A stretch of 26,221 bases of DNA, taken from positions 1 through 26,221 of the IMG/VR virus record IMGVR_UViG_3300044980_000036; one strand, 5' to 3'. The notes beneath the pieces are model-generated. The model was not told where the DNA came from, did not search any database, and saw only the letters and a program-made list of their open reading frames with translations. Shown in pieces: positions 4,620 through 21,074 of the stretch. The position numbers and the translations under genes are program-made. The stretch's first letter is position 1. Each line of letters starts with the position of its first letter. Source of the stretch: a virus.

Positions 4620-5834
4620 TTACGCCATCACACGGCAGGCAGTTTCCCCGTAAAGGGTGGCCCATCCGTACAGGACATCGAAACGCCCTGGTAGTCTGTC
4701 GGAATTGATGTCATATGCCTTGATGTAGCGCATCGAAAGTCCCAACTGATCCGAACTCTTGCGCTCGGCCATGATTACCCCGCCGGTCGGCACAACCATA
4801 TCCGCCATACCGAGAGTGAAACTTCCCTTGTGGAAGCATAGACCTTGCGGAGAGTTGGTATTGGCCGCGCCGAATACGTTGATCGTTGCGCCAGCACCGG
4901 GAGCCGCGACGACGTTCTGGAATGGGCCGGAAAGTACGATGGCCGGGTAAATGGGTACAGCCGCCGTGCCGCCCGATGAAGTGACGTTCGCGGTAACCGT
5001 AAAGCATTGAAGCGATCCGGTGGAAGTCTTTTCCTGCGGGTTGACCGAATAGCAGCCTGTTGACCCTGATCCGATGGTAAAGACGTTCCCTTGAAGCAAG
5101 AGGTTCGCCACTGACCCGGCGTTGCTGATGTTGAGTGTCGCGCCGGACTGACCGCCTGCGTTGACCGTTGTTCCTGCGTTCAAAGCCCCTACCGTGTTGA
5201 TCGCCACGTTCTGATCCATCGCCCAGGCCGCACCGATGGCATAGCCCATGTAACCCTCTTCATACTGCTCGCGGATTCGTTCCGAGGACTGGAACAAACC
5301 CTTGAGAGCGTCGACGATGGGAGGCTCCATTGCCTGGTTGATGATGATGGCGCGTGGAGTCTTTGCCGCAGCGTTATCGTTCAACTTCTGCATGGCTTGA
5401 AGATAAGTCAGCAGGGCGTTCGGAGGCGTTCCCGGAGTCCCGACTGCGTTTGCCACGTTCAGATATTGAAGCAACCCATCGGCATCAACCTTGTTCGCAA
5501 TGCGGGCCATTGCCGGCTTCAGGAACCGATCCGCGAAGTTTTCGATGTTCAGGGTGAAATCTTCTGAAGTGAAGGTCGTGTCCACACCGAACTGAGTGGT
5601 GAGAACGAGCTGAACGACTGTTTCAATCGCATCTTCGGTCGAAAGACCCTGCCCGGAACGGCCTGTATATTTGGGTGGTTTCCTGATGTTGAGGATCGTG
5701 CCAATCTGTGCGCCCTGCTTGCCGAAATCCTTGTCATACTCACGAACGACTTCCTTGGTGAAGGTCAGTTCGTTTTCTAAGACCGGCAGTGACTCCATCG
5801 TCACTTGGCCGATCGTCAAAAGTTGGTTTGCCAA
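4620..5834 (-). CDS. Major capsid protein, P22 gp5-like
   Basis: A 404-aa protein beginning at a TTG (LANQLLTIGQVTMESLPVLE) with a good AAGGAG site 6 nt away. The N-terminal half carries the P22 coat-family signature: TKEVVREYDKDFGKQGAQIG, IRKPPKYTGR, VVQLVLTTQFGVDTTFTSED and NFADRFLKPAMARIANKVD. These correspond to the N-arm, E-loop and spine helix of the HK97 fold. The middle is Gly/Ser/Thr-rich, where P22 coat has its inserted I-domain. The C-terminus returns to a compact domain (MRYIKAYDINSDRLPGRFDV). The length is close to P22 coat. It lies downstream of the scaffold gene but is separated from it by an inserted block, and it has its own promoter and leader hairpin. The identification is very secure. 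Confidence 0.95.
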   Translation of the reverse strand: MANQLLTIGQVTMESLPVLENELTFTKEVVREYDKDFGKQGAQIGTILNIRKPPKYTGRSGQGLSTEDAIETVVQLVLTTQFGVDTTFTSEDFTLNIENFADRFLKPAMARIANKVDADGLLQYLNVANAVGTPGTPPNALLTYLQAMQKLNDNAAAKTPRAIIINQAMEPPIVDALKGLFQSSERIREQYEEGYMGYAIGAAWAMDQNVAINTVGALNAGTTVNAGGQSGATLNISNAGSVANLLLQGNVFTIGSGSTGCYSVNPQEKTSTGSLQCFTVTANVTSSGGTAAVPIYPAIVLSGPFQNVVAAPGAGATINVFGAANTNSPQGLCFHKGSFTLGMADMVVPTGGVIMAERKSSDQLGLSMRYIKAYDINSDRLPGRFDVLYGWATLYGETACRVMA

Positions 5835-5855
5835 GTTGCTCTCCTTTCAAAGATA

Positions 5856-5872
5856 GAATCGTTTTCCGATTC
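5856..5872 (-). promoter_or_regulatory. Leader hairpin just upstream of the coat-gene ribosome-binding site
   Basis: GAATCG - 5-nt loop - CGATTC forms a perfect 6-bp stem in the 5' leader of the coat gene, ending about 10 nt before the AAGGAG site. A second short stem (GAGGA/TCCTC) lies further upstream in the same leader. It may shape translation or mRNA stability. Its function is inferred. Confidence 0.4.
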
Positions 5873-5935
5873 CGTCCCTGGGCGGAGAGTTTGAGGAGCG
5901 CTAGGCAGCTTCCTCGCGGGGATGTGACTGCGGAT

Positions 5936-5963
5936 ACGATAAAGCTAATTTTTAGAAAGTCAA
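5936..5963 (-). promoter_or_regulatory. Candidate promoter for the major capsid gene, overlapping a 17-bp palindrome
   Basis: On the minus strand there is a TTGACT (-35), 16-nt spacer, TATCGT (-10). It starts a leader of about 85-95 nt ahead of the coat start. The -35 box lies inside GAAAGT-tcttg-ACTTTC, a perfect 6-bp inverted repeat (5955-5971) that could be an operator, or the end-hairpin of the upstream gene without a U-tract. It would give extra coat transcript beyond the main late promoter. Confidence 0.5.
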
Positions 5964-5973
5964 GAACTTTCGT

Positions 5974-6201
5974 TCAATCGTCTGTCTGAGCGTGTAAATT
6001 ACAAGTAAATATCCAAGATTTGAACGAATCAATCATGTAATTGGCAGTCGCTATTTCAGTCTCGTCGGTGGTAATGAAACCCATTGGTGTGTCCACTTCT
6101 TTTTTGTTCTGATAGAGAATAATTACGTGTTCCATGTTTTCGGCATGTTCAAGAGCTTCCATAAGAGCATCAGTTACTGAATTTTTTGCTATTCGTTTCA
6201 C
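5974..6201 (-). CDS. Small hypothetical protein (75 aa), GTG start
   Basis: A 75-aa mostly helical protein (ALMEALEHAENMEHVIILYQ...) with a C-terminal SFKSWIFTCNL segment. The start is GTG at 6201 with GAGAGG about 6 nt upstream. The GTG overlaps, as GTGA, the stop of the frame that repeats the scaffold C-terminus (DADEYIRLRRQQRRESRGRR). This suggests the gene was once translationally coupled to the scaffold gene itself. It lies just upstream of the coat-gene promoter. No family is recognised. Confidence 0.65.
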   Translation of the reverse strand: MKRIAKNSVTDALMEALEHAENMEHVIILYQNKKEVDTPMGFITTDETEIATANYMIDSFKSWIFTCNLHAQTDD

Positions 6202-6373
6202 CTTCGGCCTCTCGATTCCCGGCGTTGCTGCCTTCGCAACCGGATATATTCGTCCGCGTCGCTTTCGGCGTCGCTTCCGTCTTGGTTTCCGGCTTGATCT
6301 TCAGTAGGTCGGACACGGCCTCTCTGAACTTCAGAGGGGCCAGAGACAGGCGAGCTTTATTTTCACGTTGCAT
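6170..6373 (-). CDS. Small moron-like hypothetical protein (67 aa), probably leaderless
   Basis: A 67-aa reading (MQRENKARLSLAPLKFREAV, then SDLLKIKPETKTEA...). The 'LKFREAVSDLLKIKPE' helix resembles the small helical phage proteins that start 'L.F.EAV..LLK.KP'. The last third runs through the 49-bp repeat in a frame different from that of the scaffold copy and looks less natural, so the original C-terminus may have been replaced by the duplication. There is no ribosome-binding site; an extended -10 promoter ends 7 nt before the ATG. It overlaps the next gene by 32 nt. Function unknown. Confidence 0.5.
   Translation of the reverse strand: MQRENKARLSLAPLKFREAVSDLLKIKPETKTEATPKATRTNISGCEGSNAGNREAEGETNSKKFSN
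6208..6256 (-). repeat. 49-bp direct repeat, copy 1 (duplicated scaffold 3' end)
   Basis: 49 bases are identical to 6773-6821, in the same orientation and 565 bp apart. In copy 2 they encode the last residues of the scaffold protein (EYIRLRRQQRRESRG). Here the equivalent frame also ends RGRR-stop, using different synonymous codons in the flank, but has no start codon of its own. About 15 further flanking bases match with two mismatches. Confidence 0.95.
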
Positions 6374-6380
6374 AGGCCGC

Positions 6381-6409
6381 AGTCTACCATGTTGTGGATT
6401 GAAAACCAA
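6381..6409 (-). promoter_or_regulatory. Candidate extended -10 promoter for the moron-like gene
   Basis: On the minus strand there is a TTGGTT, 17-nt spacer, TAGACT, with TGG directly before the -10 (extended -10 TGn). The -10 ends 7 nt before the ATG at 6373, predicting transcription from the initiator codon (leaderless mRNA). This geometry matches the two early promoters at 14168 and 17275. Confidence 0.45.
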
Positions 6410-6462
6410 AAATAACCTGTGCGCTTGCTGTTGCATCATAACTCGTGTAAGGTGGCTGAACC

Positions 6463-6657
6463 GTGAAACGAAAGACCCCCAAAAAAAGGAAGAAACCGAG
6501 CCTCACTGAATCAGCTCGAAAGGTTACGGCGATTCTCGAAGAGCATCTCTTGACGCTGCCTGTTGAAGAGCGCGAAATGTATGTTGCCTCATTTGAACGC
6601 GGAGTCCTCAGAGCTTCCCGCGCAAAGCGGCGCCCCTCCGAAGGGCGTTTAGGCTGA
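6463..6657 (+). CDS. Small basic hypothetical protein on the opposite strand (64 aa)
   Basis: A 64-aa protein from a GTG at 6463 with AAGGTGG 8 nt upstream. It has a Lys/Arg-rich start (MKRKTPKKRKKPSL), a helical core (KVTAILEEHLLTLPVEEREM, then YVASFERGVLRA) and a basic tail. It is the only plus-strand gene inside the leftward late operon. It lies between the two 49-bp repeats, back to back with the moron-like gene. Its composition suggests a nucleic-acid-binding or host-interaction protein. This fits an inserted accessory (moron) unit; the function is not recognised. Confidence 0.6.
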   Translation: MKRKTPKKRKKPSLTESARKVTAILEEHLLTLPVEEREMYVASFERGVLRASRAKRRPSEGRLG

Positions 6658-6762
6658 CATAGCACCACCTACCTTCTGGGGGCTTCGGTGAACTGCTTGG
6701 CCGCACTATCCGAGGCCCCTGAACTTCCCGAGCATATTACGAAAAAATACCATTCGCCGAAA

Positions 6763-7770
6763 TTATCGCCTACCTCTCGATTCCCGGCGTTGCTGCCTTC
6801 GCAACCGGATATATTCGTCCGTGTCGGTAACTTGATTGAGTTGAACCTGTGGCCGGATATTGTTGCCTGTCAGCCGAAGTCCAGGTGCCGGGGCCTGCGA
6901 TACAAAGTCCGATGGCAATACCGCGAGACGTTCGGCAATTCTCCCCACTTCAACTACTTGCTGAAGATCGTCCATTGCCATCAGACTTCGGGCCGCAAGA
7001 TCGTTCTCCGGCTTTGCCAGCCAGTAGGCTACTTCCGGCGCTGCCATTCGCGTTATTGCCGTTCGTGCTGATTCCGACATGGTCAGACCTCGAACATGAG
7101 CCGCTTCGAGAGTCGTGTTGAAATCTGGATGCCCGGCCATGAAGGATTTTCCTTTTTCAAGGAACCTGTCGAACTCCTCTTTCTTGATCTGACTGATCGG
7201 CGTCGGAGATTGCGGCTCAACCTTCGGCTGTTCTGTTTTCGGAACTCCATTCGTTCGCGCTCGCTCATCTGCCGCCCATAATGCCATTGCCGCATGATAT
7301 TCGTCGGCATCGGTAAACTCATTCATTCGTGGGCGAGGCTTTGGTTCTGAACTCGGAACTGCTTCCTTTTCAGGCTCGACGGTTGTTTTTTCAGGATCAA
7401 TGGTTCCAGGAGGGATTGGCGCATGACTCTTCTCCGCTTCGAGTCTCGCAGCCTTTTCTTCGGCTTCCGCTTTCTCTTTGGTAAGAGCATCAATTCTTGC
7501 TTGTACTCCACCTTTCCCCGCACGCGCTTTTCTCTTAACGTCCTTGCGTTCTTTGCGTTCCTCAAGGTAAGCATCGGTCTTTTCGATCTCCGCAACTTCA
7601 GGCGTCGGCGGAGGAGGTTCAGAAGGCGCCGGAGGTTCGGGAATGACTTCAGGGATCGTCGGAGGCGGGACAGGCAAATCATTCACTTCGCCATCGGCAC
7701 GCTTCTCAAGATATTGCTCGGTGATTTCCTGCTCGGTCGGGGTTTCTACTACGGCATTATTTTCCGGCAT
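6763..7770 (-). CDS. Scaffolding protein, P22 gp8-like
   Basis: A 335-aa, highly charged, Pro/Glu/Lys-rich protein lying in the portal-scaffold-coat order that is diagnostic of P22-like phages. Residues 1-75 are acidic and proline-rich. Residues 75-120 are a charged coiled coil (EERKERKDVKRKARAG, ALTKEKAEAEEKAARLEAEK). The middle contains FLEKGKSFMAGHPDFN, seen in other P22-like scaffolds. The C-terminus is a strongly basic helix (DEYIRLRRQQRRESRGRR), as expected for the coat-binding end. The ATG overlaps the upstream gene by 14 nt. Its last 49 bases are duplicated at 6208-6256. Scaffold guides procapsid assembly and leaves before packaging. Confidence 0.85.
   Translation of the reverse strand: MPENNAVVETPTEQEITEQYLEKRADGEVNDLPVPPPTIPEVIPEPPAPSEPPPPTPEVAEIEKTDAYLEERKERKDVKRKARAGKGGVQARIDALTKEKAEAEEKAARLEAEKSHAPIPPGTIDPEKTTVEPEKEAVPSSEPKPRPRMNEFTDADEYHAAMALWAADERARTNGVPKTEQPKVEPQSPTPISQIKKEEFDRFLEKGKSFMAGHPDFNTTLEAAHVRGLTMSESARTAITRMAAPEVAYWLAKPENDLAARSLMAMDDLQQVVEVGRIAERLAVLPSDFVSQAPAPGLRLTGNNIRPQVQLNQVTDTDEYIRLRRQQRRESRGRR
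6773..6821 (-). repeat. 49-bp direct repeat, copy 2 (scaffold gene 3' end)
   Basis: Identical to 6208-6256. This copy is the functional 3' end of the scaffold gene. The block between the copies carries two small back-to-back genes, so the arrangement looks like an insertion that restored the interrupted reading frame. Confidence 0.95.
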
Positions 7771-7942
7771 TTATGCCCTCATCTGACAAATTCTTAAAAA
7801 TGGGTGCTGCTTGATTTGTCGTTAATCCTAATTCCTCTGGATAGAAAAACAGGACTTCGGGTTCCCTAATGCAGCAATACATATCTTCCCAAGAATCATA
7901 AGACAGGGGCAACCCGCATTTCGGGCAATTAGGCTCCGGCAT
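7757..7942 (-). CDS. Small Cys-rich protein with CPKCG motif (61 aa)
   Basis: A 61-aa protein, MPEPNCPKCGLPLSYDSWED followed by MYCC. It has a CxxCG knuckle and a CC pair 13 residues later, a probable zinc site. The ATG has GGAAGG 5 nt upstream and overlaps the preceding gene by 14 nt; its own end overlaps the scaffold start by 14 nt with the same sequence pattern. The C-terminal half is helical and ends INAGK. Function unknown; probably soluble. Confidence 0.65.
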   Translation of the reverse strand: MPEPNCPKCGLPLSYDSWEDMYCCIREPEVLFFYPEELGLTTNQAAPIFKNLSDEGINAGK

Positions 7943-8264
7943 TGTCGCCTTCCGACTGTTGCGCTTGAGCTTGCTGATCCGAGGCTTGCATGGCTTGTGG
8001 TTCCCTAAATTTCTTGTGAATCTTAATCACAGAATCGGAATCCATAATAGCCATCAAAGATTCAAGGGAATCGAATAACTTCCATCCTGCCATCATATCC
8101 ACAGAAAATAGGACCGTTTCTCCGTCCAAAAGCATCACAATATACATTCCCTGTGCGGACACTTTTGAGACAATCTGACCTTCCCATCCAAAAGAGCCAC
8201 CCATAGGCACCGTGTGCCAAGAATGAAACCATTTGCCTATCAATTCATCGTCAGGTTCCGGCAT
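7929..8264 (-). CDS. Hypothetical protein with N-terminal beta-barrel-like domain (111 aa)
   Basis: A 111-aa protein starting MPEPDDELIGKWFHSWHTVP. Residues 8-65 read like a small SH3-like barrel (GQIVSKVSAQGMYIVMLLDG, ETVLFSVDMMAGWKLFDS), followed by a helix and a Gln/Ala tail ending DNAGA. It is placed between two small Cys-rich genes, overlapping each by 14 nt. No catalytic motif is seen. The family is unknown to me, but proteins of this shape (short barrel plus disordered tail) are common near phage portals. Confidence 0.65.
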   Translation of the reverse strand: MPEPDDELIGKWFHSWHTVPMGGSFGWEGQIVSKVSAQGMYIVMLLDGETVLFSVDMMAGWKLFDSLESLMAIMDSDSVIKIHKKFREPQAMQASDQQAQAQQSEGDNAGA

Positions 8265-8454
8265 TTTTTATCCCCATAAAAGTTCTAAATTCTTTCCAGC
8301 ACGCAGGGCAAATCATCCACACCGTTCTACCTTGACGTAGAAGATCAACTTGATCTGACTCATATAATTCATGCCATTGACTATCATTCGATTGAGGTTC
8401 AGATGACTGCCTTTCAAATGTATGACAACGATGACACCAAAATGCATTAAGCAT
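8251..8454 (-). CDS. Small zinc-ribbon-like protein (67 aa)
   Basis: A 67-aa protein with CHRCH near residue 7 and CPAC near residue 49, a widely spaced CxxC...CxxC pair that would make a zinc ribbon. The ATG at 8454 has AGGAG 5 nt upstream. The gene ends IKNAGT and overlaps the next gene by 14 nt. It follows the HNH gene, which also carries CxxC pairs. Function unknown. Confidence 0.65.
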   Translation of the reverse strand: MLNAFWCHRCHTFERQSSEPQSNDSQWHELYESDQVDLLRQGRTVWMICPACWKEFRTFMGIKNAGT

Positions 8455-14761: not shown

Positions 14762-14918
14762 ACAGCTCGAATCACGATGTATGCCGACCGACTACGAAGA
14801 AGCTGTGATGTACCTCGAAGAAAAGCATGGAATTACGTTCCAAGAGGCCGAAGAGATGTATTCGGACATGATGGCCGATTTTGCCGAAAACGCGATGGAC
14901 CGCGAAAGGGGAAACTGA
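14745..14918 (+). CDS. Small acidic protein (57 aa)
   Basis: A 57-aa acidic, Met-rich, helical protein (MLTPDEQLESRCMPTDYEEA and onward), starting at ATG 14745 with an excellent AAGGAG site 8 nt upstream. It overlaps the preceding gene by 17 nt, and its stop overlaps the ERF start as TGATG. It is strongly negatively charged with repeated Tyr/Met (VMYLEEKHGI, EEMYSDMMADF), like small DNA-mimic or anti-host proteins. No family is recognised. Confidence 0.65.
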   Translation: MLTPDEQLESRCMPTDYEEAVMYLEEKHGITFQEAEEMYSDMMADFAENAMDRERGN

Positions 14919-15712
14919 TGGAAGCCGAAAACGAAATGATCGAAGATGTGATTAACTATGAAGCAGTGCCGGTCACTGGCCCAGCCCCAACATTCAAGTG
15001 GCGCATGTCTATGACCATCGGTAAGATTGCCTCAGCACTCGCAACCGCACAAGGCAAATTCGATCCAATCCTCAAGGAAAATGACAATCCGGCCTATCGA
15101 GGCTCCAAGTATGCCGACCTCTCTTCAATTATTGCCGGAACACAGAAACACCTTGCCGATGTCGGGATTGCTGTAATCCAGATGCCCCATGCTGAGTTCG
15201 GTTCCGACGATACCAAAATGCTGACTCTTACAACCATGCTGGCCCATTCATCCGGCGAATGGATTATGTGCGACCTCGAAATGCCGGCGATGATGCGGGA
15301 ACGCTTCGATGCTCAATCGGTGGGATCGGGAATCACTTATGCCCGTCGCTACGCCCTTCAATCCATGCTAGGCGTTGCCGCAGAAGTGGACGATGACGGC
15401 AACAAGGCTTCTGGTGTCGGGACGCGGGAACAAGCCCAAGCGGTCGGAGCACAGAAAGCCGCCGATAAACAGGCCGAAACGCCAGCCCCCACCCTTGAAA
15501 TCGTTCCCTGGAAACTCGACACACTCATACTGAGAGGTCTAGCGGTTGGGGTGTTGCGCTCCATGATGACTCCGGCTCAACATACCCAGGTAAACATGAA
15601 ATGGGATAAAGAAGCACGCGCTTGGGAAGTCCGCGCTGCAGACGGCAACCTGGTAGCTTCCATTGCCGAGAAATTCAAAATTCCGGTGAAATGGATCGAA
15701 TCGAACGCATAG
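14918..15712 (+). CDS. erf: ERF-family single-strand annealing recombinase
   Basis: A 264-aa protein with the ERF superfamily core in order: SALATAQGKFDPILKENDNP (39-58), YRGSKYADLSSIIAGTQKHL (60-79), LTLTTMLAHSSGEWI (102-116), AQSVGSGITYARRYAL (132-147) and EVDDDGN (156-162). ERF proteins (P22 Erf) anneal complementary strands and circularise or recombine phage DNA. After a Gln/Ala linker (165-190) the C-terminal 70 residues form a separate helical tail. The start is taken at ATG 14918 (MEAENEMIED) because it overlaps the preceding stop as TGATG. The stop codon lies inside a tRNA-like stem (15706-15741). Confidence 0.92.
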   Translation: MEAENEMIEDVINYEAVPVTGPAPTFKWRMSMTIGKIASALATAQGKFDPILKENDNPAYRGSKYADLSSIIAGTQKHLADVGIAVIQMPHAEFGSDDTKMLTLTTMLAHSSGEWIMCDLEMPAMMRERFDAQSVGSGITYARRYALQSMLGVAAEVDDDGNKASGVGTREQAQAVGAQKAADKQAETPAPTLEIVPWKLDTLILRGLAVGVLRSMMTPAQHTQVNMKWDKEARAWEVRAADGNLVASIAEKFKIPVKWIESNA

Positions 15713-20434: not shown

Positions 20435-20517
20435 CTTGTTTGAATACCGACCTCCCCGGACCCGACAGGGTTGAAGTCGAAACACAATAGCCGGAATGGC
20501 AACGAGTATTCAACAAG
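20435..20517 (+). ncRNA. Three-way-junction-like structured RNA candidate
   Basis: CTTGTTTGAATAC (20435-20447) pairs with GTATTCAACAAG (20506-20517): 12 bp with one bulged T. Inside are CGAC/GTCG (20448/20476) enclosing ACCC-GACA-GGGT, and GCC-GGAAT-GGC. The whole makes a closed three-way junction of about 83 nt in the gap before the XF1762-like gene. Nothing else explains the 196-nt gap. Confidence 0.45.
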
Positions 20518-20627
20518 AGCAACGGTGTGCATGGAGCCGCGCAGAGTCGCACCCTAGAGGCTTGCCCCGTGCCGACCAGCGCCCGACTTACATTTTGACC
20601 GACTCGAAGGGTGGCCGAAAGGGACCG

Positions 20628-21074
20628 ATGAAACTGAGGCCGATCACGCTTAAAGAGGGCAATGACTTTGTGAAGGCTCACCATCGGCATCATGGTCCAG
20701 TTACAGGCTGGAAGTTTGGTGTAGGAATCGAAGAAGATGGCGAGCTCATCGGTGTGGCAATCGCAGGCAGGCCAGTATCGCGGATGACGCAGGCCAATGA
20801 ACCTCGGACTATTGAAGTGACGCGCGTTTGCACTATCGGCCACAAGAACGCTGCTTCGATGCTCTATGGTGCAATTAGTCGAGCGGCATTTGCCCTCGGC
20901 TACAACAAAGTAATCAGCTTTATTCTATGCGAAGAGACAGGCCACAGTCTTAAGTGCGCCAACTGGAAATGCGTGGGAAAGTCTTCTGGCGGGAGTTGGT
21001 CAAGGCCGAGCCGCAACAGGCAGGACGATCATCCATTGCAAGGCAAAATGAAGTGGGCGTTGGACCTTCGGTGA
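20628..21074 (+). CDS. XF1762-family protein
   Basis: A 148-aa protein from ATG 20628 (AAGGGA site). It has the family signature in order: MKLRPITLKEGNDFVKAHHR (with the HHRHHGP cluster), GWKFGVGIEEDGELIGVAIA, GRPVSR, TIEVTRVCTIGHKNAASMLY, GYNKVISFILCEETGHSLK, then SSGGSWSRPSRNRQD and a final KMKWAL. The fold and the 'E-V-T-R-V-C ... N-A-S-M-L-Y-G' core resemble GNAT-like acyltransferases, and proteins of this family occur widely in phages. A nucleic-acid or protein modification role is possible but unproven. The stop overlaps a possible small frame as GTGA. Confidence 0.85.
   Translation: MKLRPITLKEGNDFVKAHHRHHGPVTGWKFGVGIEEDGELIGVAIAGRPVSRMTQANEPRTIEVTRVCTIGHKNAASMLYGAISRAAFALGYNKVISFILCEETGHSLKCANWKCVGKSSGGSWSRPSRNRQDDHPLQGKMKWALDLR

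Follow-up and report, generated by a model that had tools for sequence, protein, structure and literature searches.

The whole stretch of DNA analysed here, hereafter called the window, is a virus record of 26.2 kb, which carries on its minus strand a P22-type head module with the genes for terminase, portal, scaffold and coat (Table 1). The order of the P22-type portal (PF16510), scaffold (phrog_8865) and coat (PF11651) marks it as a P22-like scaffold-coat module, and a profile of the scaffolds of its clade, which consists of P22-like soil viruses of bacteria, matches the P22 scaffold in the PDB (E=8e-6). Single-protein scans of viral_contigs with the scaffold and the 64-aa gene gave no match, nor did searches of phage records by DNA and by the scaffold protein. 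A coat promoter of the TTGACA type is present in most members of the clade. The leader upstream of the coat gene (5835-5900 in the window) is conserved in the relatives as well (GGGACGGAATCGGAA...CGATTC) and possibly forms a hairpin in the coat mRNA. The plus strand, regarded in the initial annotation as otherwise unused, is so only in the late operon, since from about 14.2 kb onward the genes of the window lie on it. Positions 20496-21074 weakly resemble the DNA-modification family of phage Mom (PF25680), with an E-value of 0.0014 that does not reach the curated cut-off.

Table 1. Features of the scaffold-coat region of the window and genes inserted between scaffold and coat in its relatives.
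Feature	Record	Position	Strand	Remarks
Coat protein, 404 aa	window	4620..5834	-	PF11651, E=4.6e-29
Coat-gene promoter-like site, TTGACT-16-TATCGT	window	5936..5963	-	right edge of the insertion spot; sigma-70 scan
75-aa gene	window	5974..6201	-	GTG at 6201 overlaps stop of tail copy 2 (GTGA)
67-aa block ORF	window	6170..6373	-	divergent to 64-aa gene; crosses copy 2 in another frame
Open frame ending in tail copy 2, 52 aa	window	6198..6356	-	no start codon; tail profile E=9e-8
Repeat copy 2	window	6208..6261	-	98% identical to copy 1
64-aa block gene	window	6463..6657	+	rare acidobacterial homologues; absent from ten related virus records
Scaffold gene, 335 aa	window	6763..7770	-	ends in tail copy 1; phrog_8865, E=2.5e-21; weak PF09306 (P22 scaffold) match
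Repeat copy 1 (scaffold 3' end, putative coat-binding tail)	window	6773..6826	-	repeat analysis
Small genes before scaffold	window	7757..8265	-	junctions repeat scaffold start AATGCCGGA
ERF-superfamily annealase	window	14909..15712	+	PF04404, E=1.7e-23; candidate recombinase for short-homology events
167-aa GIY-YIG/MUG113-type gene	L002			gap insert
151-aa Cys-rich gene	L004	7888-8343		gap insert
151-aa Cys-rich gene	L006	13915-14370		gap insert
GIY-YIG/MUG113-type gene	L006			gap insert
144-aa relative of 151-aa gene	L007	8327-8761		gap insert
Opposite-strand gene	L007	8748-9158	-	gap insert, 136 aa
AT-rich 103-aa gene	L008			gap insert; 34% G+C

Within the region between scaffold and coat, a block is bracketed by a direct repeat of 54 nt (D1) with a spacing of 565, consisting of 49 exact bases, one C/T difference and four further matches. 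The identical 49-bp sequences that the initial annotation had placed at 6208-6256 and 6773-6821 are thus real, being part of D1. Since the remaining direct repeats of the 26-kb window are 20-35 nt long and about 65-80% identical, D1 is an outlier far outside chance. Both copies, read in the same frame, terminate in ...DEYIRLRRQQRRESRGRR-stop: copy 1 completes the scaffold gene, as had been proposed, and the frame of copy 2 ends RRESRGRR-TGA, with the TGA at 6198-6200. Beyond the DNA repeat, GGTAGGCGATAA and GGCCGAAGGTGA are alike at 6 of 12 bases, yet both encode G-R-R-stop (an in-frame RR-stop is expected by chance at about 4e-4), and the same final residues despite differing DNA argue that both copies are authentic scaffold 3' ends rather than a junction formed by chance. 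Read in that frame, however, copy 2 is open over only 52 aa and contains no ATG, GTG or TTG, so that as assembled it makes no gene of its own and apparently is not translated. The possibility that a programmed -1 frameshift leads from the 67-aa ORF to this second tail was considered as well and rejected, the overlap containing no canonical slippery heptamer when inspected by eye.

The block enclosed by the two copies holds the two small back-to-back genes described initially, a 64-aa ORF on the plus strand and a divergent one on the minus strand, which stops at 6170 and is 67 aa long with a start at 6373 and 89 aa long with a start at 6439. The latter overlaps the start of the 75-aa gene and enters the repeat out of frame, as if truncated there. 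No homologue of the 67-aa ORF was found in 396 Acidobacteriota genomes with either a protein search or a degenerate DNA pattern; a suspected likeness to small soil-bacterial proteins was not confirmed. Homologues of the 64-aa gene were detected in 3 of the 396 genomes by protein search; a profile, for which the matches of that search served as part of the input, detected them in 4 of 247. Because the 64-aa gene has homologues, albeit rare ones, in Acidobacteriota and none was found in ten related virus records, it looks imported, possibly from the host group. The nearest relative of the coat among bacterial genomes (48% identity) likewise resides in an acidobacterial MAG. A resemblance of the C-terminus of the 64-aa protein to the window tail (shuffle p=0.0016) was given no weight, the acidobacterial homologues being similarly basic there. 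Against phage records the block genes gave nothing beyond 18-residue chance matches, and comparison with Pfam and PHROG revealed no convincing family.

The block had been called moron-like and credited with a promoter of its own. The first designation stands as far as gene content is concerned, the inserted genes being absent from close relatives, but neither an own promoter nor an own terminator came to light: the sole site in a sigma-70 scan of 5800-6900 is the coat promoter (5963-5936), the number of sites equals the chance rate, and the one terminator-like site is weak and under the shuffled mean. As in target-restoring integrative elements, the insert carries a copy of the target gene end; in agreement with the initial description, neither integrase nor recombinase is encoded in the block, which contains only two ORFs of unknown family.

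A portal scan provided eight usable relatives (L002-L009, 61-76% identity), and alignments of coat and scaffold added five further ones with a scaffold-coat gap (L011, L012, L016, L017, L020), which together with the window make up a clade of 14 members. The gap is free of genes in eight of them (L003, L005, L009, L011, L012, L016, L017, L020) and carries inserts in the other six (window, L002, L004, L006, L007, L008; Table 1). The opposite-strand gene in the gap of L007 appears nuclease-like by eye and has no Pfam match. In about 150 more distant P22-like loci, by contrast, the gap mostly spans 20-60 nt without any insert, and the few longer gaps among them contain no tail copy, so that gap content is variable in this clade only. 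Since the gap lacks genes in 8 of the 14 members and holds different genes in the others, the block is best regarded as an addition; since inserts vary here and distant loci mostly have none, the interval from the scaffold stop to the coat promoter is, on the comparative sequence evidence, an insertion hot spot of this clade. The distance from the scaffold stop to the start of the inserted gene is 0 nt in L004, L006 and L007 and -4 nt in L008. In the window, where the initially noted GTGA overlap was confirmed, the distance from the stop of copy 2 to the start of the 75-aa gene is likewise -4 nt, and as this geometry matches that of the post-scaffold genes of the relatives, copy 2 fits a former scaffold terminus to which the 75-aa gene was coupled. 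The gene-free gaps and the shared geometry support the lineage-specific insertion that kept the scaffold intact, as suggested initially, although a donor of the block was not found. The accompanying expectation that relatives would have the scaffold joined directly to the 75-aa gene failed: no such empty site was found among them. A homologue of the 75-aa gene does occur in L006 (12788-13003; 37.5%, E=5e-13), where it lies before the scaffold and not after it.

Pieces of scaffold were also found on the inserted genes of the relatives. The final ~25 residues of 14 scaffolds were made into a profile and compared with 12,155 stop-to-stop frames, read in six frames from the loci collected. Beyond the scaffolds themselves, the profile matched copy 2 of the window, the 103-aa protein of L008 (E=1e-5) and the 151-aa proteins of L006 and L004 (about 1e-4), the next-best match being background (E=1.7). 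All of these matches are exact C-termini within the scaffold-coat gap, so that two unrelated proteins, the 103-aa one in L008 and the Cys-rich 151-aa one in L004 and L006, bear the scaffold tail at their very end. Of 20,000 shuffled tails, none for L008, 1 for L006 and 5 for L004 attained the score with the own scaffold. Outside the scaffolds, a second profile, made from an internal scaffold segment (RGGKQARIDQLTREK...), matched nothing but the ends of the two GIY-YIG-type genes, in L002 at 6e-7 and in L006 at 2e-5, with the next-best match at 0.75; in L006, a repeat finder detected 75% DNA identity over 32 nt between the scaffold segment and the end of the GIY-YIG-type gene. Larger parts of five relatives yielded no further tail copies, and when other phages were searched by pattern and by protein, the 151-aa and 103-aa genes turned up at the known loci only. 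This pattern comes from few contigs and from sequence alone, the L008 type being represented by one sequence.

The Cys-rich protein, for which no family was assigned, is 91-97% identical among L004, L006 and L007 at the protein level and 77-82% at the DNA level. It contains an HCGxC motif repeated internally with a spacing of 204 nt, and its AlphaFold model (pLDDT 38) was unusable. Between L004 and L006, the body of the gene differs by 60 synonymous and 2 nonsynonymous codons, and the tail proper (TDEYLTDRKSQIRSGYRAR) by 8 synonymous and 0 nonsynonymous ones as counted on codons, which indicates that the tail is under purifying selection.

Copied gene ends occur on the other side of the scaffold gene as well. 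Between the portal and scaffold genes of the window, AATGCCGGANNNTRA recurs at three consecutive junctions, each time with the stop codon of the preceding gene in the identical position; the proteins before these junctions end NAGT, NAGA and NAGK, and those after them start MPE. In L005 the same scaffold start, AATGCCGGAACC, overlaps the end of the portal gene. Because these three junctions copy the scaffold start, copied gene ends at insertions are not unique to the block, and added genes are bordered by copies of scaffold ends at both ends of the scaffold gene. The ERF annealase of the window could recombine such short homologies.

What the tail may do is suggested by P22, whose scaffold terminates in DVETYRKLKAKLKGIR, at the same place and with the same pattern as the clade tails, the pairwise similarity being significant for some members only (L007, p=0.0013; window, p=0.18, not significant). 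The C-terminus of the P22 scaffold is a coat-binding helix in which Y292, R293 and K296 touch the coat, and removal of the 11 C-terminal residues abolishes coat binding (PMC9965877). Engineered P22 cargo is loaded via fusion to a truncated scaffold retaining the C-terminal end (PMC9962691), and the ejection proteins of P22 enter via the scaffold (PMC8402733). By analogy, the C-terminal tail on the inserted genes probably tags their products for entry into the procapsid, and the proteins bearing it would be packaged.

Taken together, these observations are best accommodated by an insertion hot spot at which scaffold modules are copied onto incoming genes and the captured tail serves as a procapsid tag, a reading to which we give an even chance. 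Foreign genes would enter the scaffold-coat gap through recombination at gene ends, probably assisted by the phage's ERF annealase, and the event would copy the scaffold 3' end, leaving the scaffold whole. The window block, with its 64-aa gene of acidobacterial kinship and a truncated small ORF, would be a young case, as its two ends have kept 98% identity over 54 nt and copy 2 is untranslated as assembled. In the relatives, a copied or captured scaffold module would have become fused in frame to the incoming gene, its coat-binding tail then probably tagging the product for the procapsid. Several findings count against this reading: neither a donor nor an empty site with the 75-aa gene was found, copy 2 carries no protein fusion in the window, the window tail shows no significant direct match to that of P22, the 151-aa tails resemble the scaffolds of L011 and L016 more than their own, and the L007 tail has degenerated to TDEYL followed by a basic end, with the body still 91% identical.

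The partial loss of the L007 tail would also be expected if the scaffold modules were fossils of insertion, that is, a copied gene junction translated on the new gene with no role in the capsid, and the short copied junctions before the scaffold, with their overlapping ends and starts, indeed look like plain by-products. However, the tail of the 151-aa protein is kept at the protein level while its DNA diverges, and the segment on the GIY-YIG-type genes is internal to the scaffold, so that duplication of a gene end cannot explain it; this explanation, though a serious one, is rather unlikely. Somewhat less probable still is that both window tails are old, one belonging to the scaffold and the other to a former tagged gene, as in L008, that they were homogenised over 54 nt by recombination, and that the block replaced the old gene later. 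The last codons, which differ in DNA while encoding the same residues, and the tail-tagged genes of relatives at this very spot agree with such a history; nevertheless, no clear remnant of an older tagged gene is present, the block ORF extends right to the tail, and tail copies outside the window are only 47-60% alike in DNA.

It seems quite doubtful that the tail-bearing proteins are not cargo at all but compete with the scaffold for the coat and thereby alter the size of the capsid or the timing of its assembly. They are small and expressed beside the scaffold, and there is a precedent in CpmB of SaPI1, which shares a C-terminal coat-binding motif with the scaffold of 80alpha and competes with that scaffold (PMC5644958), but their genes belong to the late operon of the phage itself rather than to a satellite, and selection should oppose harm to assembly. 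Finally, a mis-join of two related phage genomes can hardly account for the repeat, for, metagenomic as the contig is, a normal read is longer than the 54 bp, the sequence on either flank is unique, one base and the ends distinguish the two copies, and relatives have inserts at the same spot.

Procapsid tagging of inserted genes would resemble several known systems without coinciding with any of them. In lambda, the C/Nu3 pair shares one reading frame, and the scaffold sequence within the second capsid protein takes it into the procapsid. A P2-type protease-scaffold fusion is mentioned as another case of a capsid protein with scaffold sequence (PMC5644958). In both, a second capsid protein bears scaffold sequence within one reading frame, whereas in the clade an unrelated gene bears a tail copy of its own. 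P22 gp8 terminates, like the clade scaffolds, in a basic Y-x-R tail, and a protein fused to that tail is loaded into P22 particles; the clade fusions differ in being natural, located on genes beside the scaffold gene, shorter in the tail and known from their sequences only. CpmB is likewise a small non-scaffold protein with the coat-binding motif of a scaffold, but it is satellite-encoded and redirects capsid size, unlike the clade genes, which lie in the phage head operon and represent several unrelated families. Morons and target-restoring integrative elements also place extra genes, absent in relatives, between core genes and leave the neighbour intact via a copied end; the window block differs in having no detected promoter, terminator or integrase. 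Nuclease genes are described at boundaries of genetic exchange (PMC10448857), and the GIY-YIG/MUG113-type genes in the hot spot of L002 and L006 are comparable, except that the clade genes end in a scaffold-like segment and that the window block has no nuclease. A limited literature search found no description of scaffold modules on genes inserted beside the scaffold.

More broadly, and only tentatively, it may be proposed that this clade naturally evolves packaged cargo by duplicating or capturing pieces of the scaffold, both tail and internal segment, onto genes arriving at a scaffold-linked hot spot, with the window showing the initial stage, in which the tail has just been duplicated around a newly arrived block. 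If this is right, copying the coat-binding tail of the scaffold onto a new gene would be a natural route to capsid cargo of the kind exploited in P22 nanocages, and the locus would offer a testable case of how insertions spare essential neighbours. It would also supply a rule for finding packaged phage proteins of unknown function, namely to search for scaffold-adjacent genes whose ends mimic the scaffold.
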